64,000 bases of DNA, taken from a bacterium. GTDB lineage: Bacteria; Electryoneota; RPQS01; DYHQ01. How positions within the stretch are numbered: the stretch's first letter is position 1; every line of letters begins with the position of its first letter. The DNA is taken from contig JAUXGA010000001.1 of the NCBI GenBank assembly GCA_030622545.1, positions 62,001 to 126,000 of the forward strand, read 5' to 3'. Position numbers and translations under genes: made by a program. The notes under the pieces were generated by a model. That model saw only the letters and a program-made list of their open reading frames with translations, was not told the DNA's origin and did no database searches. Shown here in pieces: positions 39,246 through 63,888 of the stretch.

Positions 39246-39250
39246 GTTTC

Positions 39251-40843: not shown

Positions 40844-40854
40844 AGGGAGCAGCT

Positions 40855-43959
<3,105 letters not shown>

Positions 43960-47557: not shown

Positions 47558-48154
47558 ATGCCATCCATTCCGCCCATTCCAGAGCCAAAGCGACAGCGCG
47601 AGGCAGATCTGCGCGAGGCCTTCTTAAAAGAGGTCGCAGGCATACCCGCTGGTGAAAAAATAAAGAACTGCATTCAATGCGGCACCTGCACCGCCACTTG
47701 TCCGGTCTCTCGCTGGATGGACATCACTCCGCGTGAGACGGTCGCCCTATTCCGGGCCGGAATGCTCGAGGAAATTTTGGAAAGCCGCACGATCTGGATC
47801 TGCGCCTCGTGCTACTCGTGCACGGTCCGATGTCCCATGGGCATCCAAGTGACAGATCTGCTGTATGCTCTGAAGCGGCTTGCAACGGACAAAAAGATTT
47901 ATCCGAGTCGCTTCCCTGCCCATGCGCTGTCGGATACTTTCATTTCCAGTCTATACAGGTTCGGTCGGATTTACGAGCTGGAGTTGGGATTAAGATACTT
48001 CCTCAAAACTCATCCCCTGAAGCTTCTTGCGAACATAGGCTTTGGTCTCTTGATGATCATCAAAGGCCGGATGGCTATATTGCCAAAGCGAATCAAAAAG
48101 GCGAATGAGGTCAAGGCTATCATTAATCGCGCCAAAGAACTGGAAGGTGTGTGA
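47558..48154 (+). CDS. hdrC: Heterodisulfide reductase-like subunit C
   Basis: The 198-residue protein is an iron-sulfur relay with two cubane sites, CIQCGTCTATCPVSR and CASCYSCTVRCPMGI, the HdrC layout in which HdrC passes electrons from HdrA to HdrB. The C-terminal helices are typical of bacterial HdrC. GGAGG precedes the ATG. It is the first gene of the run, and its stop overlaps the hdrB start by one base. In methanogens HdrC works with CoM-S-S-CoB, which bacteria lack, so the natural acceptor here is unknown. Confidence 0.92.
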   Translation: MPSIPPIPEPKRQREADLREAFLKEVAGIPAGEKIKNCIQCGTCTATCPVSRWMDITPRETVALFRAGMLEEILESRTIWICASCYSCTVRCPMGIQVTDLLYALKRLATDKKIYPSRFPAHALSDTFISSLYRFGRIYELELGLRYFLKTHPLKLLANIGFGLLMIIKGRMAILPKRIKKANEVKAIINRAKELEGV

Positions 48155-49038
48155 TGGAATACGCCTACTATCCGGGATGCAGCCTCGAATACTCGGGCAA
48201 ACCATATGATAAGTCCATTCGCGAAGTATTCAAAGCGCTGGGTGTGAAATTGCGTGACATCAAGGACTGGAATTGCTGTGGGGCTACAATGTACGTGTCA
48301 ATTGATAAAATCGTCGCCTGTTCCGTGGCCGCCCGCAACCTTGCCCTCGCGCAGAACATGGGCTGCGATATCTGTGCGCCATGCAATAGCTGTTACACAA
48401 TCCTTCGCAAGGTCAACCGCTATCTCGCCTACGATCCAGAGATGCGTGGCAAGATCCTCGAAGTTTTAAAGGCGGCAAACCTCACATATGACACACCTGT
48501 GGATGTTCGCCATCCGCTGGACATTCTGGTGAACGATGTGGGACTCGATACTATTAAAGAGGCAGCGCCATATCGCTTCGATGGTCTTAAAGTGGCTCCC
48601 TATTATGGTTGTCAGCTTGTCCGCCCTGAACACCACTTTGACGATGTGGACGATCCTATGACCATGGACAATCTGCTGACGGCGTTGGGAGCGGACGTTG
48701 TGCCGTTCGCCTCTAAGGTGCGCTGCTGTGGCGGTAGTCTGATGACCACATGCGAGGAGGTCGCGCTGGACCTGAACAATAGTATCCTCAAGGATGCAGA
48801 GGACAACGGCGCTGAAATCATGGTTACGGCTTGCGCATTGTGTCAAATGAACCTTGAAGGCTACCAGAAAAAAATCAATAAGCGTTACAGTCAAAAGCAC
48901 AACATGCCAATCGTTTTCTTCAGCCAATTGATCGGACTGGCGCTTGGCGTAAATCCCAAGAGATTAGGCTTACAGTCAATGTTGGTAAAACCTAAAAACC
49001 TAAAACTGATACCTAAAGGGATGAAGGTCGAAGCATGA
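48154..49038 (+). CDS. hdrB: Heterodisulfide reductase-like subunit B (two CCG domains)
   Basis: The 294-residue protein has two full CCG-domain motifs: the first ends in DWNCCGATMY and CAPCNSC, the second in VRCCGGSLMTT and CALCQMN. In methanogen HdrB these ten cysteines bind two non-cubane [4Fe-4S] clusters that split the disulfide substrate, so the active site looks intact. The start overlaps hdrC and its stop overlaps the next gene (ATGA), so translation is coupled. Substrate is unknown; a low-molecular-weight or protein disulfide is the natural suggestion. Confidence 0.92.
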   Translation: MEYAYYPGCSLEYSGKPYDKSIREVFKALGVKLRDIKDWNCCGATMYVSIDKIVACSVAARNLALAQNMGCDICAPCNSCYTILRKVNRYLAYDPEMRGKILEVLKAANLTYDTPVDVRHPLDILVNDVGLDTIKEAAPYRFDGLKVAPYYGCQLVRPEHHFDDVDDPMTMDNLLTALGADVVPFASKVRCCGGSLMTTCEEVALDLNNSILKDAEDNGAEIMVTACALCQMNLEGYQKKINKRYSQKHNMPIVFFSQLIGLALGVNPKRLGLQSMLVKPKNLKLIPKGMKVEA

Positions 49039-50003
49039 GCGAGAATAAGACGCACGGCAACGGCAAGATTCCTCGCTGCCGAATCGGTTTATACATCTGC
49101 CACTGTGGAACGAATATCTCAAAGATGGTGAATGTGGTACGCATCGCCAAAGAGATGGCGAGCCACCCTGATGTGGTGGTGTCTCGGGAATACAAGTTCA
49201 TGTGTTCCGAACCCGGTCAGGAGCTCATCATTAAGGACATTGAAGAGCATAACCTTGACCGCATAGTGGTGGCAGCCTGCAGCCCACTAATGCACGAGCC
49301 TACCTTCCGCACCACCGTAGAGCGAGGCGGCCTGAACCGATACCTTTTCGAGATGGTCAATATCCGTGAGCAGTGTAGTTGGGTATCGATGAATCGCGAA
49401 GACGGCACGAATAAGGCTCGAGCCCTCATTCGGGGTGCTCTGGCGCGCGTGAAGTTCCACGAATCTCTCGAAATGCGACGAGTTACCATTGGCAGGCGCG
49501 TTATGATCGTAGGCGGAGGCATCGCCGGTATCGAGGCGGCCTTGCAGATTGCAGATGCTGGTTACGAAGTGATTCTGGTAGAGAAAGAGGAATCCATCGG
49601 CGGCCACATGGCCCAATTCGATAAGACATTCCCCACTCTCGATTGCGCCGCTTGTATTTTGACACCTAAGATGGTTGCGGTGGGAACACATCCCCGCATT
49701 CGTCTTATGACTTTTTCTGAAGTAGAAGAAGTTCAGGGTTACATCGGCAATTTCAAGGTTAAGGTTAGAAAGAAAGCGCGGTTTGTAGATCCCGAATTGT
49801 GCAATAGTTGCGGGTCGTGCTACGAGGTGTGCCCGAGTCAGCCTTACCCCAAGGACCGCCAGCTTATCATCGGGGACAAAGTTTATAAGAAAGGTCCCCG
49901 TCCAAAGCCGCGCTTGGCGGAATTGCTGAAGCAGGCGAGCGAATTGGCCGCCCCAACTGATGCTCAACCCATCCCCGAGCAGGAAGGAGCTGAACTACCA
50001 TGA
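49035..50003 (+). CDS. hdrA: N-terminal half of HdrA (FAD Rossmann part)
   Basis: The 322-residue protein matches only the first half of HdrA. It has the N-terminal domain with LYICHCGTNISKMVNV and VVAACSPLMHEPTF, a Rossmann FAD site MIVGGGIAGIEAAL (about residues 157-170), EKEESIGGHMAQFDKTFPTL, CAACILTP and one ferredoxin-like site CNSCGSCYEVCP, after which it stops. The FAD domain of HdrA continues beyond this point; that continuation is encoded by the second half of the gene at 52539-54293. The break thus falls inside the iron-sulfur insertion of the thioredoxin-reductase-like fold, so the two polypeptides must associate to build one flavin site. ATGA overlaps link it to both neighbours. 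Confidence 0.88.
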   Translation: MSENKTHGNGKIPRCRIGLYICHCGTNISKMVNVVRIAKEMASHPDVVVSREYKFMCSEPGQELIIKDIEEHNLDRIVVAACSPLMHEPTFRTTVERGGLNRYLFEMVNIREQCSWVSMNREDGTNKARALIRGALARVKFHESLEMRRVTIGRRVMIVGGGIAGIEAALQIADAGYEVILVEKEESIGGHMAQFDKTFPTLDCAACILTPKMVAVGTHPRIRLMTFSEVEEVQGYIGNFKVKVRKKARFVDPELCNSCGSCYEVCPSQPYPKDRQLIIGDKVYKKGPRPKPRLAELLKQASELAAPTDAQPIPEQEGAELP

Positions 50004-50518
50004 GTCTCCCTGTCGAAGCCCAAGATGAACTCGAGCAGATAATCACCAGCATTGTTGACCGCTACAAGGCAAAACCGACGGCGCTGATTATGGCGTTGCA
50101 GGATATTCAAAAGTACTATCACTACCTTCCGATAGAGGCCTTGAAACTGATAGCGAAGAAAATGAATCTGCCTGTCGCGCAGCTTTTTGGCGTTGCTACT
50201 TTCTTCAAGGCATTTAGCCTCACACCCAAAGGCAAGCATCACATGTGCGTATGCACCGGAACCGCCTGCCATGTCCGACAGGCTGGTGTTATTGTGGACA
50301 ATCTTAGCCGCTCTCTGGGCATAAACCCCGGTGAGACAACACCAGACGGGGAAATCAGCTTTGAGACGGTGAACTGCATAGGCGCTTGCGCATTGGGCCC
50401 CGTTATAACCGTTGACGACGAATACCATGGTCATATGACCGTCGCCAAGCTGAACAAGGTTTTGGACGACCTGCGCGGTAAAAAGACGGCTGAGGAAATG
50501 GTGGAGGAAGTGCAATGA
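50000..50518 (+). CDS. NuoE-like [2Fe-2S] subunit (24 kDa/HndA type)
   Basis: The 172-residue protein is the thioredoxin-fold partner of NuoF in NADH-oxidising modules. After an N-terminal helical part (IVDRYKAKPTALIMALQDIQ) come the four [2Fe-2S] cysteines in CTGTACHV and NCIGACALGPVI, all present. NuoE/HndA/HydC proteins accept electrons from the flavin of NuoF. It overlaps the genes on both sides by four bases, so it belongs to the same complex. It is inserted between the two halves of HdrA. Confidence 0.93.
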   Translation: MSLPVEAQDELEQIITSIVDRYKAKPTALIMALQDIQKYYHYLPIEALKLIAKKMNLPVAQLFGVATFFKAFSLTPKGKHHMCVCTGTACHVRQAGVIVDNLSRSLGINPGETTPDGEISFETVNCIGACALGPVITVDDEYHGHMTVAKLNKVLDDLRGKKTAEEMVEEVQ

Positions 50519-52527
50519 ACAACAATAAATTCACCTCGCCGGAAGACCTCAATCGTCTGAGAGAGCGCTTGGTCAAGCAGCGCGAGGAAGGCCGAATCAT
50601 TATTACCGTGTGTGCCGGTACCGGTTGCCTCGCCTGCGGATGTGAAGCGGTAACGGCAGCCTTCCGGGAGGCGCTGAAGGAAAACCAGTTAGAAGACAAG
50701 GTTGAAATCAGAACCACCGGATGTCACGGGTTTTGTGAGCGTGGCCCGTTGGTTGTTCTGCGACCGGAAGGCACTTTTTATCAGCGGGTAAAACCAGCGG
50801 ATGCGAAACTAATTGTAGAGCAGACCATCAAGCACGGGAAATTGGTCAACAAACTTCTGTATCGCGATCCCCAAACCAAAGAAGTTATTGTCAAGGAAGA
50901 TGATATTCCGTTTTACAGCAAGCAGATGCGTCTGATATTCGGTATGAACGGACACATGGATCCCACATCCATCAATGACTACATCGCTTTGGGAGGCTAT
51001 CAGGCTCTGGCTAAGGCTCTGCTTACGATGACACCGGAACAAGTCATTGACGAAGTCAAGAAATCAGGACTGAGAGGCCGTGGTGGCGGAGGATACCACG
51101 CGGGCAAGAAGTGGGCTTCCTGCCGTAGAGCTAAAGGAGAACCGAAGTATGTCATCTGCAACGCCGATGAAGGGGACCCGGGAGCTTTCATGGATCGCTC
51201 ACTGCTTGAAGGCAATCCCCACGGGGTTATTGAAGGTATGGTCATCGGTGCATTCGCCATCGGCAGTCATGACGGGTATGTGTATGTGCGCAACGAGTAT
51301 CCTCTGGCGGTGAAGAACCTGAACATCGCCGTTGACGCTGCCCGCGAGCATGGGTTTTTAGGGGATAACATTTTCGGAAGCAGCTTCAATTTTGATATCG
51401 ATGTTTCCCGTGGCGGCGGGGCGTTTGTGTGCGGCGAATCTACAGCTTTGATGGCATCGTTGGAAGGAAAAATCGGCGAGCCTCGGGCTAAATATGTCCA
51501 TACCGTTGATGCGGGTCTCTGGGATAAACCGTCCAATCTCAACAATGTAGAGACTTGGGCGAATGTCCCGCTGATTATTGAAAAAGGCGCTGACTGGTAC
51601 AGCCGGATCGGCACCGCGAGCTCAAAGGGAACCAAGGTATTTGCTTTGACCGGCAAAATTAATAACACTGGTCTTGTAGAAGTGCCGATGGGGATTACCC
51701 TCCGCGAGATTATCTTCGACATCGGAGGCGGGCCTCCGAAAGGCAAAAAATTCAAGGCGGTTCAGACCGGCGGCCCATCAGGCGGAACCCTCGTCGTCGA
51801 AACACGCGAGCCGAAGGTGCATGAAAGCCTCGTGGCACACGGCGATATTCGCGACGAGGAGGAAGTCGTAAGTCTGCTCGATTTGCCGGTGGATTTCGAC
51901 GAACTGACTAAAGTCGGGTCCATGATGGGCTCGGGTGGCATGATTGTCATGGACCAAGACTCGTGCATGGTGGATGTGGCCAAATATTTTCTTAACTTCC
52001 TGCAGGAGGAGAGCTGCGGCAAATGTACCCCCTGTCGCGAGGGATTGCGCATCACGTTGGAGATACTGACACGCATCTCCGAAGGCAAAGGGCAAATGGA
52101 AGACCTTGACACTCTTGAGGAAATTTCGCAGGTGATGATTGACACATGCCTCTGTCAGTTGGGGGGAAGCGCACCCAACCCGGTTCTGTCCACGATTCGC
52201 TATTTTCGACAAGAATATCTCGCTCACATTGTAGAAAAACGATGCCCGGCTGGGGTGTGTAAGGAGCTTGTATCGCATGCGATTGATGAAACCTGTACCG
52301 GTTGCCATGTCTGTTTTAGTGTATGTCCCACAAACGCGATTATCGGCCAAACCAAGACCCTCCATGTCATCGACCAGGATGCCTGTATCCAATGCGGCGC
52401 GTGCTATCAGCTTTGCAGGTTTGACAGCATCAAACGAGTGAAGCGCGGCGAAGGTGACGCGATTCAGTATGTGGCGAAAGAGAAGTGGCATCCACCCGTG
52501 AAAAAGAAAGCCGCCGCCGTAGCTTAG
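50515..52527 (+). CDS. NuoF-like NADH-binding diaphorase subunit with extra ferredoxin domains
   Basis: The 670-residue protein has, in order, an N-terminal [2Fe-2S] thioredoxin-like domain (VCAGTGCLACGCEA; TTGCHGFCERGP), the FMN/NADH-binding domain (SGLRGRGGGGYHAGKKW; CNADEGDPGAFMDR), an SLBB region, the NuoF [4Fe-4S] site ESCGKCTPCREG with a distant ligand near DTCLCQLGG, and two C-terminal [4Fe-4S] ferredoxin motifs (CTGCHVCFSVCP; CIQCGACYQLC). This is the HydB/HndC layout used in NAD(P)-linked hydrogenases. The glycine-rich loop reads GGYHAG where most relatives have AGFPTG, and the usual CGEETAL reads CGESTAL. It should oxidise or reduce NAD(H) or NADP(H). Confidence 0.92.
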   Translation: MNNNKFTSPEDLNRLRERLVKQREEGRIIITVCAGTGCLACGCEAVTAAFREALKENQLEDKVEIRTTGCHGFCERGPLVVLRPEGTFYQRVKPADAKLIVEQTIKHGKLVNKLLYRDPQTKEVIVKEDDIPFYSKQMRLIFGMNGHMDPTSINDYIALGGYQALAKALLTMTPEQVIDEVKKSGLRGRGGGGYHAGKKWASCRRAKGEPKYVICNADEGDPGAFMDRSLLEGNPHGVIEGMVIGAFAIGSHDGYVYVRNEYPLAVKNLNIAVDAAREHGFLGDNIFGSSFNFDIDVSRGGGAFVCGESTALMASLEGKIGEPRAKYVHTVDAGLWDKPSNLNNVETWANVPLIIEKGADWYSRIGTASSKGTKVFALTGKINNTGLVEVPMGITLREIIFDIGGGPPKGKKFKAVQTGGPSGGTLVVETREPKVHESLVAHGDIRDEEEVVSLLDLPVDFDELTKVGSMMGSGGMIVMDQDSCMVDVAKYFLNFLQEESCGKCTPCREGLRITLEILTRISEGKGQMEDLDTLEEISQVMIDTCLCQLGGSAPNPVLSTIRYFRQEYLAHIVEKRCPAGVCKELVSHAIDETCTGCHVCFSVCPTNAIIGQTKTLHVIDQDACIQCGACYQLCRFDSIKRVKRGEGDAIQYVAKEKWHPPVKKKAAAVA

Positions 52528-52538
52528 GAGAGCTATTC

Positions 52539-54293
52539 ATGGAAAAAGTGTCCATAACCATTGACGGGAAGCCCATCGAAGTTGAAGAGGGAAGCTATGT
52601 CCTCCAAGCTGCGGAGGAATTGGGGATTAAAATCCCGACACTCTGCTACTATGAGCATATGACTCCCTACGCGGCGTGCCGAATCTGCTCCGTAGAAGCG
52701 CGGGACGGAAAAGGCTGGACAAAAATCGTAACCGCCTGTAACTATCCCGCATGGGATGGCCTGCAAATTTTCACGGACACACCGCGGGTAATCACCGCAC
52801 GCAAAGTCAACCTCGAAATGCTCATGAGCCATTGTGCCCCTGCTCCCGTGCTGCAAGAGCTCGCCGACGAACTCGGCGTCAAAGAGCCGCGCTGGGGCAT
52901 CGGCACAGACACCTGCATTATGTGCGGTCTCTGCGTGCGTATCTGTGACGAGGTAGTCGGCGCTCACGCTCTCACATTCAGCAGCCGCGGGATTGACCGT
53001 GAAGTCTCGACTCCGTTCAAACTTGAAAGCGAGGACTGCATTCTCTGTGGAGCATGTGCACGCTACTGTCCCACGGGGCATATCAGAATGACGGATACCA
53101 ATGGCCGGATACTACATTCGGAGCTTACACTCGGACCCAACACAGCGATATCGATTCCATTCCGGCAGGCAATTCCCAACGCCCCGCGCATTGACCCAGA
53201 TTATTGCATCCACATGGCAACCGGCGGCTGCAAGCTGTGCTCCAAAGTTTGCCCCAAGGAATGCATCAACTATGAGGACAAGGACGAATTCGAAGAGCTC
53301 GAGATTGGTGCCATCATTATCGCCACGGGGTTCCAGGACTTTGACCCCACCCCTATGCAGCAATTCGGATACGGCAAGTATCCGAATGTTCTTAGCTCCA
53401 TAGAATTCGAGCAGATGAATAATGCGGCCAGTCCCACGGATGGGAAAATTCTAATGGAAAACGGCGAGGAGCCGCGTTCTATTGCTATTCTGCATTGCAT
53501 TGGTAGCCGCGACGAAGACCACCATAAGTACTGCAGCCGCGTCTGCTGTATGTATGCCCTCAAATTCGCCCATCTGGTCAAGGAAAAGACCAACGCTGAA
53601 GTGTACCAACTCTACATCGATATGCGCACCTTTGGCAAGGGCTACGAGGAGTTTTATCAGCGAATCCTTACGGAAGGAGTGAATGTCATTCGGGGCAAGG
53701 GTGGCGAGATCGTTCCCGCTCCGCCTGAATACAGCAGTGAAGGCAATCTCCTAGTGCGATGCGAAGATACGCTGATTGGTAAATTCCGCGAAATTCCGGT
53801 GGACATGGTGATTTTATGCACCGCCCTTGAAGCCCGGGGCGATGCAGAGGACATTGCCCGGAAGTTCAACATCTCGACGGGAGCAGACGGCTGGTTCATC
53901 GAGGCTCACCCGAAATTGGCTCCGGTATCCACGACCACCGAAGGAGTTTTTCTGGCTGGCGTATGTCAGGGACCGAAAGATATTCCTGATACGGTGGCAC
54001 AAGGCACCGCCGCCGCGGCTCATTCGATAAGGCTGCTTAATATGGGTGAGGTCTTGATGGATGCTGCCTACGCCGAAATCGTGGAGGAATTCTGCAGCGG
54101 CTGCCGCATCTGCAACGGCTTGTGCCCATACAACGCGATTACCTTTGACGAAGAGAAAAAAGTGAGTGAAATAAACTCGGCGCTTTGCAAGGCGTGCGGA
54201 ACATGCGTGGCTGCCTGTCCGACCGGTGCCATCAAGGCTCGCCATTTCACGGACGACCAGATTTACGCACAAATTGAGGGGATTCTGGCATGA
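52539..54293 (+). CDS. hdrA: Fusion of HoxU/NuoG-type N-terminus with the C-terminal half of HdrA
   Basis: From the ATG at 52539 (TTAGGAG upstream) the protein is 584 residues. Residues 1-190 resemble the N-terminal part of NuoG/HoxU: a [2Fe-2S] site (C36, C47, C50, C67) and two [4Fe-4S] sites (C126-C136; C167-C177). The usual histidine-cysteine cluster motif is missing; its place reads LMSHCAPAPVLQ. From about residue 200 the sequence turns into HdrA: IPFRQAIPNAPRIDPDYC, GAIIIATGFQDFDPT, CIGSRDEDHHKYCSRVCCMY, FGKGYEEFYQR, a flavin-binding end with GPKDIPDTVAQGTAAA, and two ferredoxin sites (CSGCRICNGLCP; CKACGTCVAACP). It supplies what the gene at 49035 lacks. Confidence 0.9.
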   Translation: MEKVSITIDGKPIEVEEGSYVLQAAEELGIKIPTLCYYEHMTPYAACRICSVEARDGKGWTKIVTACNYPAWDGLQIFTDTPRVITARKVNLEMLMSHCAPAPVLQELADELGVKEPRWGIGTDTCIMCGLCVRICDEVVGAHALTFSSRGIDREVSTPFKLESEDCILCGACARYCPTGHIRMTDTNGRILHSELTLGPNTAISIPFRQAIPNAPRIDPDYCIHMATGGCKLCSKVCPKECINYEDKDEFEELEIGAIIIATGFQDFDPTPMQQFGYGKYPNVLSSIEFEQMNNAASPTDGKILMENGEEPRSIAILHCIGSRDEDHHKYCSRVCCMYALKFAHLVKEKTNAEVYQLYIDMRTFGKGYEEFYQRILTEGVNVIRGKGGEIVPAPPEYSSEGNLLVRCEDTLIGKFREIPVDMVILCTALEARGDAEDIARKFNISTGADGWFIEAHPKLAPVSTTTEGVFLAGVCQGPKDIPDTVAQGTAAAAHSIRLLNMGEVLMDAAYAEIVEEFCSGCRICNGLCPYNAITFDEEKKVSEINSALCKACGTCVAACPTGAIKARHFTDDQIYAQIEGILA

Positions 54294-54787
54294 CGAATTT
54301 CGAACCGAAAATCCTCGGTATTCTCTGCAATTGGTGCAGTTACACGGGTGCAGACCTCGCGGGAACCGCCCGCATGAAATATCCTGCCAACATGAGAAGC
54401 GTGCGGGTGATGTGCAGCGGTCGAGTGGACCCGGGGTTCATCTTCGACGCACTGCGCGCGGGTGCCGACGGCGTGCTGGTGTGCGGCTGCCATCCCGGCG
54501 ACTGTCACTACCATGAAGGCAATTACAAGTGTATGCGGCGCATCCCGCTGACGAAAATCCTGCTCGAAGACATGGGAATTGATCCCCGGCGACTTCGACT
54601 CGAATGGGTTTCCGCCAGCGAAGGCGCACGCTTTCAGCAGGTAGTCACCGAGTTTACAGAAGAACTTCGCGCTCTTGGCCCGCTCAAGCTACGTGAGCTA
54701 AACTTTGATCCTGACCATCCAGCCGGAGGCGATAACCATGTCGCCGTCGAGAGTGCAGCGCACGACGAACTTGAAGCGGGTCATTAG
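54290..54787 (+). CDS. mvhD: MvhD-like hydrogenase/Hdr linker subunit
   Basis: The 165-residue protein is a small [2Fe-2S] subunit that connects the hydrogenase to HdrA. The five conserved cysteines lie in LCNWCSYTGADLAG, VMCSGRVDP and VCGCHPGDCHY. About fifty residues of C-terminal extension, rich in His, Asp and Glu, follow the usual end. ATGA overlap with the fusion gene upstream and a short gap to mvhG downstream place it exactly between the HdrA-type and hydrogenase parts, as in Mvh-Hdr complexes of methanogens. Confidence 0.92.
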   Translation: MTNFEPKILGILCNWCSYTGADLAGTARMKYPANMRSVRVMCSGRVDPGFIFDALRAGADGVLVCGCHPGDCHYHEGNYKCMRRIPLTKILLEDMGIDPRRLRLEWVSASEGARFQQVVTEFTEELRALGPLKLRELNFDPDHPAGGDNHVAVESAAHDELEAGH

Positions 54788-54795
54788 GAGAAATC

Positions 54796-55767
54796 ATGGC
54801 GAAACCAAAACTTGCCATATATTGGGCAGCATCTTGTGGCGGATGTGATATCGCCATCCTCGACATCGAGGAGAAAATCCTCGATGTGGCCGAATTCTTT
54901 GACCTCGTTTTCTGGCCGTGCGCGATGGACTTCAAGTATGCCGATGTGGAAGCGATGGAAGATAAATCTATCACCCTCACGCTGTTTAATGGAGCTATTC
55001 GCAGCGATGAGAATTACCGCATCGCGCAGCTCCTGCGTAAAAAATCTGTTGTCCTGTGTGCCTTTGGAAGCTGTGCCTCCGAAGGTTGCATACCCGGTTT
55101 GGCCAACCTGTGTAATCTTGACTCCATTCTCGACTATGCGTATATTAAATCTCCATCAGTGAACAACTCGAATAAGATTATACCGCAGACAAAGACAAAA
55201 GTGCCCGAAGGAGAACTCACTATACCCCGATTGTGGAACACCGTGCGCACGTTGCCGCAAGTGGTGGATGTTGACTACATTATCCCCGGTTGCCCGCCGC
55301 AGTCCGATCAGATTATCGAGGTGCTTACCACTATCATTGATATTCTGAAAAATGATAAACCTCTACCTGAAAAAGGAACCGTCTTAGGGGCCACGGACAA
55401 GAGCGTTTGTGATGAGTGTACGCGTGAGCGTGATATAAAGAAGATTACCAAATTTATTCGTCCCTATGAAATCATCCCAGATCCCGATCTCTGTCTCCTT
55501 GAGCAAGGGATTGTATGTCTCGGCCCGGCGACTCGTTCGGGGTGCGGAGCCAAATGCGTATTGGCTGGTGCGCCCTGCCGCGGCTGTTATGGCAAGCCGC
55601 AGAATATACGCGACCAAGGCGCGAAGATGATTTCGGCGCTGGCCAGTGTGATTGATTCCACCGACCCCGAAGAAATCGAACGGATTATCCGTACAGTGCC
55701 CGACCCGATAGGGACATTCTACCGATTTTCACTGGCTGATTCTATGCTGAGGAGGGTGCAAATATGA
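54796..55767 (+). CDS. mvhG: Group 3c-type [NiFe] hydrogenase small subunit
   Basis: The 323-residue subunit carries the iron-sulfur chain from the [NiFe] site. The proximal-cluster cysteines appear in WAASCGGCDIAI, FGSCASEG and IPGCPPQ; further cluster ligands in VCDECTRERD, DLCLLEQGIVCLGP, SGCGAKC and CRGCYG. No twin-arginine signal or membrane anchor, so it is cytoplasmic, as in F420-non-reducing (Mvh) hydrogenases. It overlaps the large subunit by four bases. Confidence 0.93.
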   Translation: MAKPKLAIYWAASCGGCDIAILDIEEKILDVAEFFDLVFWPCAMDFKYADVEAMEDKSITLTLFNGAIRSDENYRIAQLLRKKSVVLCAFGSCASEGCIPGLANLCNLDSILDYAYIKSPSVNNSNKIIPQTKTKVPEGELTIPRLWNTVRTLPQVVDVDYIIPGCPPQSDQIIEVLTTIIDILKNDKPLPEKGTVLGATDKSVCDECTRERDIKKITKFIRPYEIIPDPDLCLLEQGIVCLGPATRSGCGAKCVLAGAPCRGCYGKPQNIRDQGAKMISALASVIDSTDPEEIERIIRTVPDPIGTFYRFSLADSMLRRVQI

Positions 55768-57248
55768 AAAGCATTGTGATTGATCCTATCACCCGCCTCG
55801 AAGGTCACGGGAAAATCCACCTGTTCATAAAGGACGACGGTGAGCTGGCCAATTGTTATTTTCAAGTGCCTGAATTACGTGGGTTTGAAGCTTTCTGCGT
55901 GGGGCGGCCAGTTGAGGAGCTATGCCGTATCACCACTCGTATCTGTGGTGTTTGTCCGGATGCTCACCACATGGCGTCTGCCAAGGCTATTGATGCGGTG
56001 TTCGGCGCAGAGATTCCCTCGGCGGCTCATAAACTGCGCAACCTTCTGTACAACGGGTTCTACGCCAGCGACCATACCGCTCACTTTTACGTTCTTGCCG
56101 GTCCGGATTTCATTTGCGGGCCTGATGCACCTCCGGGCGAACGCAACATCCTCGGGGTTATCGCCAAGGTTGGTCTTGATGCGGGAAAAAAGGTGATTGC
56201 TCAGCGTGCGAACGGCCAGCGCGTTATTGAGATTATCGGCGGAAAAAAGGTTCATCCCGTAACCGCACTCCCCGGTGGTATGTCTAAGCGCATCTCGAAA
56301 GAAGAACAGGAAGAGCTCATCAAGATCGGCGAAAACATGGTCGAGTTCGCCAAGTTCTCTATCCAAATAGTGAACGATGTTGTACTGGCGAATGAAGAGT
56401 ATGTAGATATGATTCTCTCTGATACCTACGCTCATAAAACTTACAACATAGGCCTCGTGGATGAGAACAACAAAGTGAACTTCTACGATGGCAAAGTGCG
56501 CGTTACGGATCCCGACGGGAAAGAACACTGTAAGTACGAACCAAAAGATTATCTCGAGTATCTGGCCGAACATGTAGAGCCTTACAGCTATCTCAAATAT
56601 CCTTACCTCAAGAAGGTCGGCTGGAAAGGTTTTGTGGATGGGGTGGATTCTGGTGTGTTCAAAGCCACGCCGCTGTCCCGGTTGAATGTGTCCGACGGCA
56701 TGGCGACTCCGCTGGCGCAAGCCGAATACGAACGCTTTTATGAAACGCTCGCGGGGGACAGCAGCGGTAAAACTCCCGTTCATGGCACGCTGGCCACTCA
56801 CTGGGCCCGCGTGGTCGAATTGGTTTACTCATGCGAAGCGGTGTTAGAGCTGGCCAAGGACGATGAGATTACATCAGACCATATATTTGATCCTCCGAAA
56901 GGCATCGTCGGTGAGGGAGTGGGCGTCGTGGAGGCTCCGCGCGGGAACTTGACCCATCATTACAAGACTGACGAGAACGGCATCGTCACCGAGGCTAACC
57001 TTATCGTGGGAACAACTAATAACAACGCAGCCATCTCGATGTCCATTAAGCGGGCTGCGGAGGGTTTGATTAAGAAGGGTACTGAAATAACTCAAGGAAC
57101 CTTAAACCGGATCGAGATGGCGTTCCGCGCCTACGACCCATGCTTTGGCTGCGCCACTCACTCGCTGGCCGGTGAAATGCCCCTTGAGGTTATTGTGCAC
57201 GATGCTGAAAGCGGTGAAGTCATCCAAACGGCACAACAGAATTGCTGA
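55764..57248 (+). CDS. mvhA: Group 3c-type [NiFe] hydrogenase large subunit
   Basis: The 494-residue catalytic subunit splits or makes H2. Both metal-binding motifs are intact: RICGVCPDAHHMASAKAID near residue 58 and DPCFGCATH near residue 459. The sequence continues 28 residues beyond the histidine of CATH (to ...QTAQQNC); in most [NiFe] hydrogenases such a tail is cut off by a protease after nickel insertion, and a protease gene follows at once. The N-terminus (VIDPITRLEGHGKIHLFI) is standard. The call as group 3c rests on the Mvh-Hdr context and the lack of signals for export. Confidence 0.93.
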   Translation: MKSIVIDPITRLEGHGKIHLFIKDDGELANCYFQVPELRGFEAFCVGRPVEELCRITTRICGVCPDAHHMASAKAIDAVFGAEIPSAAHKLRNLLYNGFYASDHTAHFYVLAGPDFICGPDAPPGERNILGVIAKVGLDAGKKVIAQRANGQRVIEIIGGKKVHPVTALPGGMSKRISKEEQEELIKIGENMVEFAKFSIQIVNDVVLANEEYVDMILSDTYAHKTYNIGLVDENNKVNFYDGKVRVTDPDGKEHCKYEPKDYLEYLAEHVEPYSYLKYPYLKKVGWKGFVDGVDSGVFKATPLSRLNVSDGMATPLAQAEYERFYETLAGDSSGKTPVHGTLATHWARVVELVYSCEAVLELAKDDEITSDHIFDPPKGIVGEGVGVVEAPRGNLTHHYKTDENGIVTEANLIVGTTNNNAAISMSIKRAAEGLIKKGTEITQGTLNRIEMAFRAYDPCFGCATHSLAGEMPLEVIVHDAESGEVIQTAQQNC

Positions 57249-57736
57249 AACCTATTCTCATATTATGTCTCGGCAACGAGATTGTCAGCGATGATGGCTT
57301 CGGTGTAGAGATTGCGCGGCGGCTCACGGATGTAGGTAATATACCAGAATCCGTCGAAGTAGTTTTTGCGCCGATCGCAGGTTTTGCTCTCCTTGATCTA
57401 TTGGCGGGCCGCGCGAAAGTGCTTATTGTGGACACAATCCGCACAGGCAACGCCGCGCCGGGAACGCTGCATAAGTTTGCTGCTGGAGTTCTTACCCCGT
57501 CTAAAAACCTGACCACCAGCCATCAGATTAGTTTGCCCACTGCGCTGGAATTCGGGCGGCAGTTAGGATTGGATATGCCTGACGATATAGATGTGATTGC
57601 TGTGGAGGCAGAAGACCTCGAGACGGTGAGTGAACAGCTTACGCCCTCCGTTCAGGCGGCTGTGGACCAAGCGATACGATTCGTATGGGATTGGATATCA
57701 CGCAACGCCACAGAGGAGATTACTCATGCCAACTGA
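57242..57736 (+). CDS. Hydrogenase maturation protease (HycI/HoxW family)
   Basis: The 164-residue protease removes the C-terminal tail of the large subunit. It has the family opening LILCLGNEIVSDDGFGVEIA with the nickel-sensing acidic residue, the second acidic ligand in VLIVDTIRTG, and the HQIS-type histidine (TTSHQISLPTAL). The start is a TTG at 57242 that overlaps the mvhA stop. It lies directly after its probable substrate gene, and the DnaJ-type zinc protein begins 11 bases before its end. Confidence 0.9.
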   Translation: MLKPILILCLGNEIVSDDGFGVEIARRLTDVGNIPESVEVVFAPIAGFALLDLLAGRAKVLIVDTIRTGNAAPGTLHKFAAGVLTPSKNLTTSHQISLPTALEFGRQLGLDMPDDIDVIAVEAEDLETVSEQLTPSVQAAVDQAIRFVWDWISRNATEEITHAN

Positions 57737-58031
57737 GAGAAAACGGGAACCATCCACGGGCGAACCCAAAACCTGCCCCGAGTGCAATGGTCGGGGTTGG
57801 ACGGATAACCTCTGCATCACCGAAGAACGCGCTCACCGATGCAGCTACTGTGATGGCAAAGGATTCGATGCGGCTGGAAAGGAATGCTACGCCTGCAGAG
57901 GCACAGGACTGATTGAAGTGCGCCGGGAGGACAAGAGTCCGTGTCCACTATGTCAGGGCGCTGGAGTCTATCCTGTTCCTGAATCCATGACGATAGAACA
58001 ATTCGCGTTTCATCCCGGTAAAAAAGTATAG
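57726..58031 (+). CDS. Stand-alone DnaJ-type zinc-finger protein (no J domain)
   Basis: From the ATG at 57726 the protein is 101 residues and contains four CxxCxGxG repeats: CPECNGRGW, CSYCDGKGF, CYACRGTGL and CPLCQGAGV. That is a complete DnaJ/Hsp40 cysteine-rich zinc-finger domain, binding two zinc ions, without the J domain or client-binding domains. It overlaps the protease gene by 11 bases and is followed by a nickel-permease-like gene, so it is embedded in the hydrogenase maturation block. I infer a chaperone or thiol-redox role in handling the unfolded large subunit or a metal donor. The function is not established. Confidence 0.8.
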   Translation: MPTERKREPSTGEPKTCPECNGRGWTDNLCITEERAHRCSYCDGKGFDAAGKECYACRGTGLIEVRREDKSPCPLCQGAGVYPVPESMTIEQFAFHPGKKV

Positions 58032-58048: not shown

Positions 58049-58699
58049 ATGTCAACTGAACTTTCTTTACTACTCGGGGCGGCCGCCACTCTGGGCTTTG
58101 TCCATACGGTGCTTGGCCCTGATCATTATGTGCCATTCATCGCGATGGCGCGAGCTCGCCGGTGGTCTTCTCGCCATGCGTTGTGGATTACTTTCTTGTG
58201 TGGGGTAGCTCATGTGCTGGGTTCGGCGTTGATTGGAGCTGCTGGCTTGTTGTTCGGCATCAAGGTACTCAAGCTCGAAATATTTGAGTCGGCACGAGGT
58301 AATATCGCCGGATGGTTGCTGCTTGGCTTTGGGCTGGCTTATATGATTTGGGGAATTCGCCGCGCCGCCCGCCAAAGCGCACCTGCATTGAGCAAGTTTA
58401 AAGAGCAGGCTAAGGATGGAAACATCATACCTTGGATTCTCTTTACAGTCTTTATATTTGGCCCTTGCGAGCCGCTGATTCCTGTGCTGATGTATCCCGC
58501 GGCCACAGCTAATGTGCCATGCTTGCTGGCTGTCATCGCTACCTTCGGTCTTTTTACTGTGGGCACGATGATGGCTCTCGTCTATGTCGCACAGCGCGGA
58601 TTGGCTGTATTGCCAGTACGCACCACCGCACGCTACTCCCATGCGCTGGCGGGATTCATGATAGCAGCATGCGGAGCGGGAATCCAGTTCGGTCTATAG
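58049..58699 (+). CDS. UreH/NicO-like membrane protein, probable nickel permease
   Basis: The 216-residue protein has six predicted membrane helices. The first helix carries HTVLGPDH, an H-x4-D-H pattern like that needed for nickel binding in NiCoT and NicO/UreH permeases, and helix 2 has GVAHVLGS with another histidine. FIFGPCEPLIPVLMYPA is typical of the UreH-like group within the TauE/SafE-related families. GGAG precedes the ATG. Position between the hydrogenase protease and hypF supports nickel supply for the [NiFe] site. A sulfite or other anion exporter of the same superfamily cannot be excluded. Confidence 0.7.
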   Translation: MSTELSLLLGAAATLGFVHTVLGPDHYVPFIAMARARRWSSRHALWITFLCGVAHVLGSALIGAAGLLFGIKVLKLEIFESARGNIAGWLLLGFGLAYMIWGIRRAARQSAPALSKFKEQAKDGNIIPWILFTVFIFGPCEPLIPVLMYPAATANVPCLLAVIATFGLFTVGTMMALVYVAQRGLAVLPVRTTARYSHALAGFMIAACGAGIQFGL

Positions 58700-58799
58700 T
58701 TCTTGCTGCTGCTGTAAGATAGAAATTGGCCGATTCTTGCTTGAATGTACTGAGGTCGCCCGGGCCTTCGAGAGTGAAGTTCAGGGCGATATTTTTATT

Positions 58800-61115
58800 A
58801 TGTCTGCAATGATTCGACACGTGGCAATCCATGTATTCGGCACGGTGCAGGGCGTGGGATTCCGTCCTTTCATCTATAACCTTGCTGGTCTGCATGGACT
58901 ATCGGGAACAGTACTGAACAACAACTGTGGAGTACACATCCGCGCACAGGGTCCCGCGGATCGTCTTCAGGCGTTTGTCGAAGCTGTTCGCTACGCTGCT
59001 CCCACCGCAGCCCGTGTGGAAGACCTGCAGACGACATCGTTGCCTCTGGCGCCGTATGTGGATTTTCGCATTCTTCCCAGTGAAGCCGAAAGCGATGGTT
59101 TCACGCTGATACCGCCTGACCTTGCTCTTTGCGACGATTGCCGGCGCGAACTGAACGAGCAAGAGGATCGCCGCTTTGCCTATCCGTTTATTAATTGCAT
59201 CCAGTGCGGCCCGCGTTTCACCATTGTTCGCACCCTGCCCTACGACCGCCCGCAGACAACCATGAATGTGTTTGCGATGTGCCCGGACTGTCGAGAAGAA
59301 TACGTAAGCCCGGCCAACCGACGCTATCACACACAGCCGGTGTGTTGTCGCGATTGCGGCCCTGAGCTGCGGTTCCTTAGTGCATCGTCCCATGAATGGG
59401 TACAAAAAGAGCAAGGTGAAACAGTAATCGCCCATTTAGTCGAAGCTCTGAAGGAACGGAAGATTGCGCTCATTCAAGGAATCGGCGGATTCCACCTCGC
59501 ATGCGATGCACGCGACGAAGAGCTTGTGCTCCAACTGCGACGGCGCAAACAACGCGATGAAAAGCCGTTCGCTGTGATGTTTCCCAGTGAACGCCATGTC
59601 CGAGAGAATTGCGAGGTTACTGAAGCCGAATTGGAACTTCTGCGCTCGTCACACGCACCCATTGTGCTGCTGAGAAAACGCGCAGGAAGTGTTGTAGCTT
59701 CGGCAGTAGCTCCTGAGAATCCCTTCATCGGCAGCATGCTTCCATACTCGCCGATTCACCTGCTTGTGCTCCGGGAGTTCGGTCATCCCCTCATCATGAC
59801 CAGCGCCAACCTGACCGATGAACCGATTGCTTATCAACTTGATGACGCACTGGTTAGACTACAAGGCGTGGCTGATGTAGCCCTTGTGCACAACCGTGAA
59901 ATCCACATCTTTGCCGATGATTCGGTGGCTCGCGTAATCAATGGTTCGCCGCGCATCTGGCGGCGGTCGCGCGGTTATGTCCCGCAACCTGTGAAGGTGT
60001 CGGAGCGTTTCCGCGTGCACACCCTCGCCTTCGGCCCACAACTCAAGAATACATTCTGCCTCGGTCGCGAAAAGATCGCGTTGCTCTCGCAACACCTGGG
60101 AGACATGGACACCGAGCAAGCCATCGAGGCTCAGCAGGCAGCCCTCAAGCATTTTCTTCACCTCTTCGATGCACAGGTAAAACTGGCGGCGTGCGACCTC
60201 CATCCCGACTATACGACTACGCGCATTGCAAAGGAGTGGTGCAACGCGCGTGGTATTCCCCTCATTCGCGTACAACACCATCACGCACATCTCGCAGCGT
60301 GTTTGGCTGAGAATGGAGAGAAGGATTCTGCCATCGGACTGTGCCTCGATGGCACAGGCTACGGCACCGATGGCGCCATCTGGGGCGGCGAGATTCTGGT
60401 CGGGGATGCTAACAGCTTTTCGCGAGCTGCGCACTTGCAGGAAGTTCCGTTGCTCGGAGGTGAGCAGGCGATTCGCCAGCCGTGGCGCATGGCGTTGGCA
60501 TGGCTGTATGAAGTCTTCGGAGAAAGCCTGTTCGACCTTCCGCTTCAGTTCATTCAATCGGTGTGTGCAGAGGTCGGCGAAAACGCCGTGAAAATGCTCC
60601 TGAATTCCGGCCTTGTTGCCAAAGCTTTTCCGTCCACATCCAGTCTCGGACGATTGTTCGACGCGGTCGCCGCGCTTCTATTCTTCGGTGTGCGTTCTCA
60701 ATATGAAGGACAGGCGGCCATGCAGCTCGAATGGCGGATGTCCACCACGCCTGAAAAGCCATATCCTTTCGGCATTCGCCCGTCGGACAGCCACTTCATC
60801 CTTTCACCTGAACCCATGTTCCACGCGCTGGTGGATGATCTTACCGCAGGAGTCCCCTCGGAAGTTATCTCACGACGGTTCCATGAAGGGGTTGTAGAAG
60901 GATTTGCTCGATTGTGTGAAATAGTCAGCGAGTCTACCGACCTTCATACAGTAGCGCTAAGCGGGGGATGTTTTCAAAACGCGTTCTTGGAATCCATTCT
61001 AACTGAGAGACTATCTGCACGAGGATTTCGCGTGTTGACACATCATCATGTGCCCACCAATGATGGCGGTGTGGCTCTCGGTCAAGCAGTCGTAGCCAAT
61101 ACACAAGGAGACTAA
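58800..61115 (+). CDS. hypF: Carbamoyltransferase HypF
   Basis: HypF makes the thiocarboxamide on HypE that becomes the cyanide ligands of the [NiFe] site. The 771-residue protein has, in order, an acylphosphatase domain (IHVFGTVQGVGFRPFIYNLA), two zinc-finger units (CDDCRRELNEQEDRRFAYPF...CIQCGPR; CPDCREEY...CCRDCGPE), a YrdC-like domain (KRKQRDEKPFAVMF-type block, MTSANLTDEPI) and the carbamoyl-transfer domain with HHAHLAACLAENG and LCLDGTGYGTDGAIWGGE. Start at ATG 58800 or 58809. HypC follows after three bases. Confidence 0.96.
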   Translation: MSAMIRHVAIHVFGTVQGVGFRPFIYNLAGLHGLSGTVLNNNCGVHIRAQGPADRLQAFVEAVRYAAPTAARVEDLQTTSLPLAPYVDFRILPSEAESDGFTLIPPDLALCDDCRRELNEQEDRRFAYPFINCIQCGPRFTIVRTLPYDRPQTTMNVFAMCPDCREEYVSPANRRYHTQPVCCRDCGPELRFLSASSHEWVQKEQGETVIAHLVEALKERKIALIQGIGGFHLACDARDEELVLQLRRRKQRDEKPFAVMFPSERHVRENCEVTEAELELLRSSHAPIVLLRKRAGSVVASAVAPENPFIGSMLPYSPIHLLVLREFGHPLIMTSANLTDEPIAYQLDDALVRLQGVADVALVHNREIHIFADDSVARVINGSPRIWRRSRGYVPQPVKVSERFRVHTLAFGPQLKNTFCLGREKIALLSQHLGDMDTEQAIEAQQAALKHFLHLFDAQVKLAACDLHPDYTTTRIAKEWCNARGIPLIRVQHHHAHLAACLAENGEKDSAIGLCLDGTGYGTDGAIWGGEILVGDANSFSRAAHLQEVPLLGGEQAIRQPWRMALAWLYEVFGESLFDLPLQFIQSVCAEVGENAVKMLLNSGLVAKAFPSTSSLGRLFDAVAALLFFGVRSQYEGQAAMQLEWRMSTTPEKPYPFGIRPSDSHFILSPEPMFHALVDDLTAGVPSEVISRRFHEGVVEGFARLCEIVSESTDLHTVALSGGCFQNAFLESILTERLSARGFRVLTHHHVPTNDGGVALGQAVVANTQGD

Positions 61116-61118
61116 ACT

Positions 61119-61340
61119 ATGTGCCTTGCCGTGCCTATGAAACTACTCGAACACCATGGCCAGAGCGGCGTTTTGGAAATTGGTGGCGCACGGAAGGAAG
61201 TCATGCTCACGCTGACTCCCGACGCGAAGGTCGGCGACTGGCTGATTGTGCACGCCGGTTATTCGCTTGAAATCCTCGATGAGCAGGAAGCCGAGAGCAC
61301 CCTCACACTCCTGCGAAAACTTGGCGAGTCGGAGACATGA
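61119..61340 (+). CDS. hypC: Hydrogenase maturation chaperone HypC
   Basis: The 73-residue protein begins MCLAVPMKLLE, in which the second-position cysteine is essential for carrying the Fe(CN)2CO unit with HypD. VGDWLIVHAGYSLEILDEQEA is the typical second half. Overlaps hypD by ATGA. Confidence 0.96.
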   Translation: MCLAVPMKLLEHHGQSGVLEIGGARKEVMLTLTPDAKVGDWLIVHAGYSLEILDEQEAESTLTLLRKLGESET

Positions 61341-62434
61341 ATATCCTTCTGCCGTTTCGTGATGCAGATGTCATGCAGCGTATCGCCGCTGAAATCCGGC
61401 AGTTTGACATAGACCGCCCCCTGCGGTTCATGGAGGTATGCGGTGGTCATACGGCGGTCATTTATCGCTTTGGATTGACCGATTTCCTGCTTTCAACGAT
61501 ACGGCTCGTATCCGGTCCCGGTTGTCCAGTATGTGTGACCGCCAATGATTTTATAGATCGCGCTATTGCTCTATGTGAATTGCCCGATGTAACAATAGCT
61601 ACCTTTGGCGATCTGGTGCGTGTGCCCGGTTCGACACGCTCTCTGGCCGAAGTTCGCGCTCGCGGAGGCGATGTGCGTGTCTTCTACTCTTCCGCCGATG
61701 CCCTCACGTGGGCGCGCGAACATCAAGAAAGAACGGTTGTGTTTCTCGGAATTGGATTTGAAACCACAGCCTGCACACTGGCGGCTACTATGGCCGAGTG
61801 CGTTCAAAGTGGTGTCAAAAACTTTCGTTTCCTGTCCGCACTTAAGACAATGCCCGCCGCGCTACAAGCGCTCTTCTCTGCTCCGGATGTGCACATTGAC
61901 GGGCTTATCTTGCCCGGCCATGTAACCACTGTCACAGGTTTGAGTGCTTTTCGTTTTATTCCGCGCGAATTTGGCATCCCCTGTGTGGTTTCGGGATTTG
62001 AACCTATTGATGTAATGGAATCCGTGCTCATGCTTTGCCGACAGATTAAAGACCATCATGCAGATGTAGAAAACCAGTATCGGCGCGTGGTGCGCGATGG
62101 CGGTAATCCGCAGGCGCGAGCGGTAATAGATGAAATGTTCGAGCCATGCGATATGCCGTGGCGCGGATTTGGCATCATTCCTGAAAGCGGACTCAAACTC
62201 AGCCCGCAGTTTGCATTCTGGGATTCGGAGAATGTTACTGTAGAGGTAGAACCGCCCCAAGAGCATCGCGGCTGTCGATGTGGAGATGTGCTATGCGGGA
62301 GGATTTACCCATCGGAGTGCTCTCTTTTTGGCACGGCTTGCACGCCCGAAACGCCCCGCGGCGCGTGCATGGTTTCTTCAGAGGGCGCGTGCGCGGCACT
62401 TTATCATTTTGCGCCGGTCAATTATGACAGATAA
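61337..62434 (+). CDS. hypD: Hydrogenase maturation protein HypD
   Basis: HypD is the scaffold on which iron receives cyanide and CO, using a [4Fe-4S] cluster. The 365-residue protein shows RFMEVCGGHTAVIYRFG, SGPGCPVCVTA, FLGIGFETTACTLA and a C-terminal set of cysteines (HRGCRCGDVLCGRIYPSEC; FGTACTPETPRGACM). All signature blocks are present. The hypE start lies within its last 11 bases. Confidence 0.96.
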   Translation: MNILLPFRDADVMQRIAAEIRQFDIDRPLRFMEVCGGHTAVIYRFGLTDFLLSTIRLVSGPGCPVCVTANDFIDRAIALCELPDVTIATFGDLVRVPGSTRSLAEVRARGGDVRVFYSSADALTWAREHQERTVVFLGIGFETTACTLAATMAECVQSGVKNFRFLSALKTMPAALQALFSAPDVHIDGLILPGHVTTVTGLSAFRFIPREFGIPCVVSGFEPIDVMESVLMLCRQIKDHHADVENQYRRVVRDGGNPQARAVIDEMFEPCDMPWRGFGIIPESGLKLSPQFAFWDSENVTVEVEPPQEHRGCRCGDVLCGRIYPSECSLFGTACTPETPRGACMVSSEGACAALYHFAPVNYDR

Positions 62435-63434
62435 AATCGTTACTCTGAATCACGGTGCGGGTGGAACGGCCATGCGCCACCTTATCACCGAGCTCTTCGT
62501 GAGCCATTTTGATAATCCTGCGCTATCAGAACTCGCTGACGCTGCTCTGCTTGAGGTAAACGGCAGTCGTCTCGCCTTCAGTACTGATTCGTATGTTATC
62601 AAACCGGTGGAGTTTCCGGGAGGTAATATCGGCAAGCTCGCGGTGTGCGGCACGGTGAACGATCTCGCCGTAATGGGGGCGCGGCCTCTTTACCTTTCAA
62701 TAGGTTTTATTCTTGAGGAAGGACTGAATCTTAATCTTCTCGAACGCGTCGTGGCATCTGCCGCTGATGTGGCGCGTGCAGCCGGCGTAGATATCGTGAC
62801 CGGCGACACCAAAGTGGTGGCGCGGAGCGAGTGCGACGGCATCTTCATTAATACCTCGGGCATTGGTCTGCAGCCACTGGGAAATGGACTTTCAAGTAAT
62901 CCCATTGCACCGGGAGATGTGATTATCGTCTCAGGCACTTTGGGCGACCACGGTATCGCTGTGTTGAGCGCGCGAGAAGGGCTGACCTTCCAGACGGACA
63001 TCGAAAGTGATTGCGCGCCGCTCAATGACATGCTCCACACCGTACTGAGCAAATCCGCCGGTGTAAAATGGATGCGCGATCCTACGCGCGGCGGCGCAGC
63101 GGCTGTGCTCACCGAGCTTGTGGAGCAGAAACCCTTTGGTGCTATCATCCGAGAGACCGCCATTCCGGTGCGCGAAGATGTTCATGCCGTGTGCGAACTG
63201 TTGGGATTTGACCCGCTCTACCTCGCCAACGAGGGGAAGGTGCTCATGGTGCTTGAAGCGAAGGATTCGGACCGTGTTTTAGAAATTCTTCGCGCACATC
63301 CGTTAGGACGGAACGCTGCCATCATCGGCAATATCACCTCTGATAGCCCGGGTCATGTCAGGATAGAAACGATGGTAGGAAGCGTTCGCCGTCTTCAGCG
63401 GCCAAGCGGCGAACTTTTACCACGTATTTGTTAG
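62424..63434 (+). CDS. hypE: Hydrogenase maturation protein HypE (carbamoyl dehydratase)
   Basis: HypE receives the carbamoyl group from HypF on its C-terminal cysteine and dehydrates it to a thiocyanate. From ATG 62424 the protein is 336 residues and begins IVTLNHGAGGTAMRHLI. It has GGNIGKLAVCGTVNDLAVMG and DPTRGGAAAVLTELV of the PurM-like fold and ends in PRIC, with the reactive cysteine as the last residue. A frame extending upstream to 62280 lies wholly in hypD and is not used. Confidence 0.96.
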   Translation: MTDKIVTLNHGAGGTAMRHLITELFVSHFDNPALSELADAALLEVNGSRLAFSTDSYVIKPVEFPGGNIGKLAVCGTVNDLAVMGARPLYLSIGFILEEGLNLNLLERVVASAADVARAAGVDIVTGDTKVVARSECDGIFINTSGIGLQPLGNGLSSNPIAPGDVIIVSGTLGDHGIAVLSAREGLTFQTDIESDCAPLNDMLHTVLSKSAGVKWMRDPTRGGAAAVLTELVEQKPFGAIIRETAIPVREDVHAVCELLGFDPLYLANEGKVLMVLEAKDSDRVLEILRAHPLGRNAAIIGNITSDSPGHVRIETMVGSVRRLQRPSGELLPRIC

Positions 63435-63461
63435 AAGCTATCCCAAAAAACCGCCGTTGTG

Positions 63462-63482
63462 GGTCTCCAGACCCGCAATGGT
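63462..63482. repeat. Dispersed palindromic repeat, copy 2
   Basis: CGCCGTTGTGGGTCT-CC-AGACCCGCAATGG, matching the copy at 19053-19084. Here the palindrome TGGGTCT/AGACCC is nearly perfect. It lies between hypE and hypA and may act as a transcript hairpin inside the run. Confidence 0.7.
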
Positions 63483-63504
63483 GAGTTTGCAGGAGTGAGT
63501 GGTC

Positions 63505-63888
63505 ATGCATGAGCTTTACATTGCTGAATGTATTGTGAAATCCGTAAACTCATCGCTTCCTCGCAATGTTGCGCCGACGCTGGTTACGCAGGTGCGCGTG
63601 CAAGTAGGACAACTTGATGCCGTTGTTCCCGAAACTCTGAAGTTCTCGTTTGATGCAATTAAACAGTCCTGCGGAATGCCGCGTGCTGAGCTTCTAATAA
63701 AAGAAATTGCGGTGCGGTGCCGGTGCCGCGACTGCGCCCACGAATTTGGAATAGACCTCCCGGTCTTTATCTGCCCGGCGTGCAATAGGGGGGATGTGGA
63801 AGTGTTACAGGGACGGGGAATCACACTTACCAGGATTATAGCCGACGAGCCTGAAGGAGAGACACATGGAAATACCAGTTATTCGTGA
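63505..63888 (+). CDS. hypA: Nickel-insertion protein HypA
   Basis: HypA delivers nickel to the hydrogenase together with HypB. It begins MHELYIAECIV; His2 is the nickel ligand, which fixes the start at 63505 over an upstream GTG. The zinc site has CRCRDCAHEF and ICPACNRGDV. The hypB start lies within its last 23 bases. Length 127 residues, normal for the family. Confidence 0.94.
   Translation: MHELYIAECIVKSVNSSLPRNVAPTLVTQVRVQVGQLDAVVPETLKFSFDAIKQSCGMPRAELLIKEIAVRCRCRDCAHEFGIDLPVFICPACNRGDVEVLQGRGITLTRIIADEPEGETHGNTSYS

Follow-up and report, generated by a model that had tools for sequence, protein, structure and literature searches.

A J-less DnaJ-type zinc-finger protein encoded behind the maturation protease of one clade of Mvh-type [NiFe] hydrogenases: a candidate assembly factor

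The maturation of [NiFe] hydrogenases is usually described in terms of the proteins HypA-F, a protease and some helpers restricted to particular lineages. The stretch of DNA analysed here, 64 kb in length and called the window in what follows, encodes a small J-less zinc-finger protein of the DnaJ type (ZF), and the ZF gene is found directly behind the gene of the hydrogenase maturation protease in 21 species from two phyla, from which we conclude that the protein probably helps to assemble that hydrogenase. The more specific proposal, that ZF is a dedicated maturation or assembly factor for the immature large subunit MvhA and would act in the manner of plant BSD2 without being BSD2, leans in part on analogy and is given about an even chance of being correct. 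The genes and sequence elements of the locus are the following.

54290 to 54787, plus strand: MvhD (FlpD), from a profile search
54796 to 55767, plus strand: MvhG, the small subunit, from profile searches
55764 to 57248, plus strand: MvhA, the [NiFe] large subunit, with a C-terminal peptide after DPCFGCATH, from profile searches; the proposed client
57242 to 57736, plus strand: hydrogenase maturation protease with a TTG start, the constant neighbour of ZF (TIGR00072, 111.7 bits, cut-off 47.45)
57713 to 57718, plus strand: GAGGAG, a ribosome-binding-like site of ZF within the protease gene, from inspection of the start region
57726 to 58031, plus strand, ATG and stop included: ZF, 101 amino acids
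57774 to 57797, plus strand: motif 1, CPECNGRG, with a spacing that is invariant in the 21 orthologs
57813 to 57815, plus strand: C30, a ninth invariant cysteine outside the motifs, from the ortholog alignment
57840 to 57863, plus strand: motif 2, CSYCDGKG, from the motif scan and ortholog spacing
57885 to 57908, plus strand: motif 3, CYACRGTG, from the same two sources
57942 to 57965, plus strand: motif 4, CPLCQGAG, likewise
57966 to 58028, plus strand: conserved C-terminal tail of ZF, consensus VYPVPxSMTAxxFAYxPG in the ortholog alignment; a candidate client-binding segment
58049 to 58699, plus strand: membrane protein, permease-like by eye and under all curated cut-offs, adjoining ZF at some of the orthologous loci only
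58737 to 63888, plus strand: hypF, hypC, hypD, hypE and hypA, variable neighbours of ZF, from profile searches

The ZF frame is open over its whole length and, as the initial annotation had described it, encodes a 101-residue J-less protein with four perfect CxxCxGxG motifs, the ATG at 57726 being placed inside the protease gene (stop at 57736) so that the two genes overlap by 11 nt. These four motifs are the only ones of their kind in the six-frame translation of the window, and when the ZF protein was shuffled 200,000 times, three motifs were never reached and two were the most obtained. The Pfam profile of the DnaJ central domain (PF00684) matches ZF with 40.4 bits (cut-off 32.7), which places the protein in that family. 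A Pfam profile search of ZF finds no J-domain, and hence not the J-domain with HPD that defines a type I DnaJ/Hsp40, and the score against TIGR02349, 36.6 bits, is far under the cut-off of 377.2; the ordinary DnaJ of the same genome is encoded elsewhere, on contig 13. The description of ZF as made only of its four motifs goes too far, since they account for 32 of the 101 residues and C30 and the conserved tail come in addition. An alternative start at GTG 57630, which would give 133 amino acids, is mechanically possible; the ATG is preferred on the grounds of conservation and of the ribosome-binding-like site in front of it.

The 21 ZF orthologs have identities of 52-71%. In the phylum of the window (Electryoneota/AABM5-125-24) they occur in 15 of 39 genomes with about 163-190 bits, all remaining matches being below 31 bits, and in a second phylum (that of genome G333) in six of 133 genomes with 164-177 bits. 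A search of about 345 genomes from outside the window's phylum gave no match above 38 bits, and a further sample of other phyla, consisting mostly of the same genomes as the first, added no orthologs. All 21 proteins have the four motifs with an inter-motif spacing of 14/7/11, and their alignment contains 28 invariant columns, among them nine cysteines, namely C30 and the eight motif cysteines. The differences per site at codon positions 1, 2 and 3 are 0.26, 0.24 and 0.61, and each of the nine invariant cysteines is encoded by both TGT and TGC among the orthologs; from these two observations it follows that the ZF protein is under selection. ZF is, in other words, a real and conserved gene. 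Further small proteins that carry several DnaJ-type motifs and no J-domain are encoded at L047:7224-7556, L048:5327-5590 and L049:9869-10249; they are distinct from the ZF family, and within the stretches examined none of them lies next to hydrogenase genes like those of the window.

Consider now the position of the gene. When the site lies on one contig, ZF is found directly 3' of the maturation protease in every case (20 of 20 genomes), so that the recurrence beside the protease which the initial annotation had proposed as a check is seen at all sites where it can be checked. In 19 of the 21 genomes the gene stands behind its own MvhA-protease pair: this is the case on all contigs of the window's phylum that show the site, and in five of the six carriers of the second phylum. 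In G016 the site is split by contig ends, with one contig stopping just past the protease and another starting 32 nt before ZF, and in G013, where MvhA and the protease lie about 0.8 kb apart, protease and ZF still adjoin. In 18 of 20 genomes ZF starts before the protease gene has ended, the overlap being 4 to 56 nt (the start codon in G427 is uncertain), an arrangement which suggests that translation of ZF is coupled to that of the protease.

What comes after ZF varies: the membrane protein, hypF, hypA-hypB, hypB alone, or unrelated genes. The initial annotation had put ZF in front of a nickel-permease-like gene, and a membrane gene does follow in the window (58049-58699), but it is missing beside several orthologs and is not a constant partner, so that a partnership of ZF with a nickel permease was rejected. 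This membrane protein has no Pfam match above cut-off, and its ortholog at L034 passes DsbD_2 (34.4 bits, cut-off 24.9). Some of the orthologous loci have neither a hyp gene nor a permease after ZF, and for this reason the earlier description of the surroundings as a maturation block is too broad; the part that stands is that a non-standard member of the maturation set recurs behind the Mvh protease in 21 genomes of two phyla and is tied to one MvhA clade.

The region 47558-54293 contains HdrC-like and HdrB-like genes, a short HdrA-like flavoprotein (49035), NuoE-like (50000) and NuoF-like (50515) genes and, at 52485, an HdrA-like protein with a NuoG-type 2Fe-2S N-terminus, which is followed by MvhDGA; the layout is that of a possible electron-bifurcating Hdr-NuoEF-Mvh complex. 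HdrABC-MvhAGD has been reported for Candidatus Tariuqbacter arcticus of the candidate phylum Electryoneota/AABM5-125-24, and the portion of that account consulted here makes no mention of the finger gene (PMC10439189). Farther upstream, at 38004-43959, three genes resemble, by eye, those of an RND-type metal efflux system, with its pump, a membrane-fusion protein and an outer-membrane channel.

The presence of ZF follows the type of MvhA. The 15 ZF carriers of the window's phylum coincide exactly with the genomes whose MvhA identity is at least about 77%, and the 24 genomes without ZF comprise five with MvhA at 55-67% and nineteen others; the protease identities split in the same way (at least 51% in ZF genomes, at most 37% in those without). 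The association between ZF and the close MvhA type in this phylum has a Fisher p of 4e-11, a value that overstates independence, because the carriers form one MvhA clade and their counts are not independent. Eleven genomes of the second phylum carry an MvhA of the close type, and ZF is present in six. The contig stops within MvhA in three of the others (G404, G386 and G333) and about 320 nt past the protease match in a fourth (G451), and the fifth, G402, which is listed as 100% complete, keeps the MvhA and protease of the clade and does not have ZF (L189, G402:C24). About 65 genomes with Mvh-type large subunits from outside these groups show no ZF. In the MvhA tree, which leaves out two fragmentary members (G010 and G012), the close type is a single clade of 23 rows with 100/100 support that spans both phyla and takes in every ZF-linked MvhA of the tree apart from the one in G502; its sister pair, G025 and G028, is without ZF. 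All 21 carriers have an Mvh enzyme of this clade, which is the recurrent linkage expected of a [NiFe] maturation factor.

To see whether host or enzyme is followed, take the two host families that are mixed: in f3, ZF is present in G013 and G026 and absent in G018, and in f7 it is present in G022 and absent in G025 and G028. Because both families are mixed, ZF tracks the hydrogenase type and not the host family, and this within-family split is better evidence for the tie between ZF and the hydrogenase than the p-values are. The hallmark of the MvhA clade is a five-residue insertion, D[KR]SG[KR], at residues 332-336, together with one extra residue in the C-terminal peptide (483). As a strict mark of ZF the insertion was rejected, as the whole clade has it, including the ZF-less G402, and the terminal cysteine of MvhA was rejected as a mark of ZF-bearing enzymes because it is not invariant.

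Two genomes deserve to be treated separately. The operon of the expected close Mvh type in G502 is without ZF, and the gene stands instead in a second, 56% identical Mvh operon, behind a protease with 32% identity (L163 G502:C9, L191 G502:C99), which makes this genome a natural case of ZF relocation between Mvh operons. The other is G402, a natural ZF-less control, from which it follows that at least one genome can do without ZF or replace it, and that the gene is not universally needed. Now, if ZF were a passenger with an unrelated role, co-inherited with the hydrogenase genes, its restriction to one MvhA clade, by which the counts amount largely to a single origin, and its absence from G402 would both be expected. 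Strong conservation at the protein level over two phyla would not be, nor would the constancy of the protease while downstream and host contexts vary; selection on ZF and its reappearance in G502 right behind an Mvh protease gene weaken this reading in particular, and we regard it as quite improbable. It is slightly harder still to believe that ZF is a permanent small subunit which bridges or stabilises the mature Mvh-Hdr-NuoEF complex: confinement to one Mvh clade and production together with it agree with such a role, whereas the gene is placed behind the protease and outside the structural genes, is tied to a different Mvh operon in G502, and is lacking in G402.

When solved structures are searched by profile, the top match of ZF is DnaJ (1exk, E 5e-7). 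An AlphaFold2 prediction from a 15-member alignment reached a pLDDT of 61 with weak Foldseek matches, and addition of DnaJ fingers to the alignment raised the pLDDT to 74, with a global fold that is uncertain and global superpositions that are poor. For the latter model Foldseek ranks the finger of DnaJA3 first (E 9e-4) and Arabidopsis BSD2 second (E 1.6e-3), and it also matches anti-TRAP at 1.2 Å over 26 columns. The safe reading of these models is that ZF would consist of DnaJ-type zinc hairpins whose mutual arrangement is uncertain. A circular permutation of the DnaJ finger, with motifs 1-3 of ZF aligned to DnaJ motifs 2-4, was rejected because the rotated sequences score lower.

The resemblance to anti-TRAP raises the question of a regulator of operon expression, similar to anti-TRAP or to phage Q proteins. 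The zinc module of anti-TRAP (RtpA) matches motifs 3-4 of ZF with 28.4 bits against a cut-off of 32 (PF15777; NF058604 gives 34.1 against 65), certain orthologs score better against PF15777 (best E 1.9e-10), and Q-like antiterminators in PHROG match ZF weakly. These similarities, however, span the cysteine motifs only, ZF has four motifs and not two, and TRAP itself (PF02081) is absent in nine of ten ZF carriers searched, under conditions where the B. subtilis control was detected, the match in the tenth carrier being a fragment of 29 residues within a 4497-aa frame. Membership of ZF in the anti-TRAP family was therefore rejected, with the cut-offs unmet and the target absent, and the absence of TRAP weakens the regulatory explanation to the point where we give it hardly any credence.

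For the function of ZF, a dedicated assembly factor of the large subunit is the most economical explanation. The [NiFe] precursor keeps its C-terminal peptide and an open form as long as nickel has not been inserted, and cleavage by the protease comes after that (PMC12134894); of precursor and processed protein in E. coli Hyd-2, the latter is the more compact (PMC6769069). A protein that holds the open form would be useful at the protease step. The proposed sequence is as follows. ZF, MvhA and the protease would be made from one gene block, and the two zinc hairpins formed by the four motifs would, together with the C-terminal tail, bind pre-MvhA with its peptide still on. Until both Fe(CN)2CO and Ni have been installed, ZF would keep pre-MvhA soluble and open; the protease would then cut, and MvhA would close and join MvhG. 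Throughout, ZF would act without J-domain and without DnaK, much as plant BSD2 does with the large subunit of Rubisco. We infer, with the same reserve, that ZF contains zinc and that it binds, holds and releases pre-MvhA. Against an assembly factor it must be said that Mvh enzymes at 55-67% identity, and G402 likewise, manage without ZF, and that the structure model is moderate only (pLDDT 74).

The initial annotation had offered thiol management beside the holding of the unprocessed large subunit. In its present form the former would mean that C30 and H37 of ZF serve to maintain the active-site cysteines of pre-MvhA in a reduced, zinc-free state, or to carry or shield a metal at nickel insertion. 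The invariance of C30 in 21 of 21 orthologs and the near invariance of the nearby H37, neither of which belongs to the DnaJ motifs, agree with such a guard, as does the oxidising activity of ZnJ6, a related J-less protein (PMC7865324). Chloroplast ZnJ2, on the other hand, has a holding activity that is independent of DnaK and of thiols and forms no disulfides itself (PMC5818400), and searches with Pfam and curated TIGR/NF profiles match ZF to none of the metal-chaperone families. A thiol or metal guard is, on balance, unlikely, and by analogy with the J-less DnaJ-finger chaperones the holding of the unprocessed large subunit is the better guess.

The fold family of ZF is already known, and what is without precedent found is the proposed use in hydrogenase maturation: no paper describing a DnaJ-type finger in this process came up in a search of open-licence literature, a limitation by which this negative is weak evidence of absence, and a 2025 review of the [NiFe] pathway mentions neither DnaJ nor zinc fingers (PMC12134894). 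If the proposal is true, the DnaJ zinc finger is an added fold among the [NiFe] maturation helpers, and bacteria, like chloroplasts, have recruited stand-alone DnaJ fingers to serve in the assembly of particular clients. ZF is also an extra gene that can be tried directly in the heterologous production of Mvh-type hydrogenases. Whether it represents a new class of [NiFe] accessory protein, i.e., a bacterial J-less DnaJ-finger chaperone for one large subunit, translationally coupled to the protease and a functional counterpart of BSD2, we put forward tentatively, at somewhat less than an even chance.

Compared with DnaJ (PF00684; E. coli DnaJ 1exk), ZF has the same four CxxCxGxG motifs and lacks the J-domain, the G/F region and the C-terminal client domains; the 14/7/11 spacing, the extra invariant C30 and the distinct C-terminal tail are its own. 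With the known [NiFe] helpers HypC/HybG, HupF, HupK/HoxV and HybE it would share the part of a large-subunit-specific helper encoded alongside its client (PMC12134894; for the HybE cluster, PMC12727194), although these belong to other protein families. BSD2, for which genetic evidence points to a chaperone specific for RbcL (PMC5818400), differs from ZF in that the latter is bacterial and linked to a hydrogenase and not to Rubisco, with putative client binding, and the natural ZF sequence is unmatched by the cysteine-rich domain of BSD2 (PF25436, BSD2_CRD) at E up to 1, so that ZF falls outside the BSD2 family. With BSD2/ZnJ2 and the other J-less DnaJ-finger chaperones of the chloroplast ZF nevertheless has in common that it is small, J-less and equipped with four motifs, and its proposed role, as helper for one large subunit, would be the analogue of that of BSD2 (PMC5818400).
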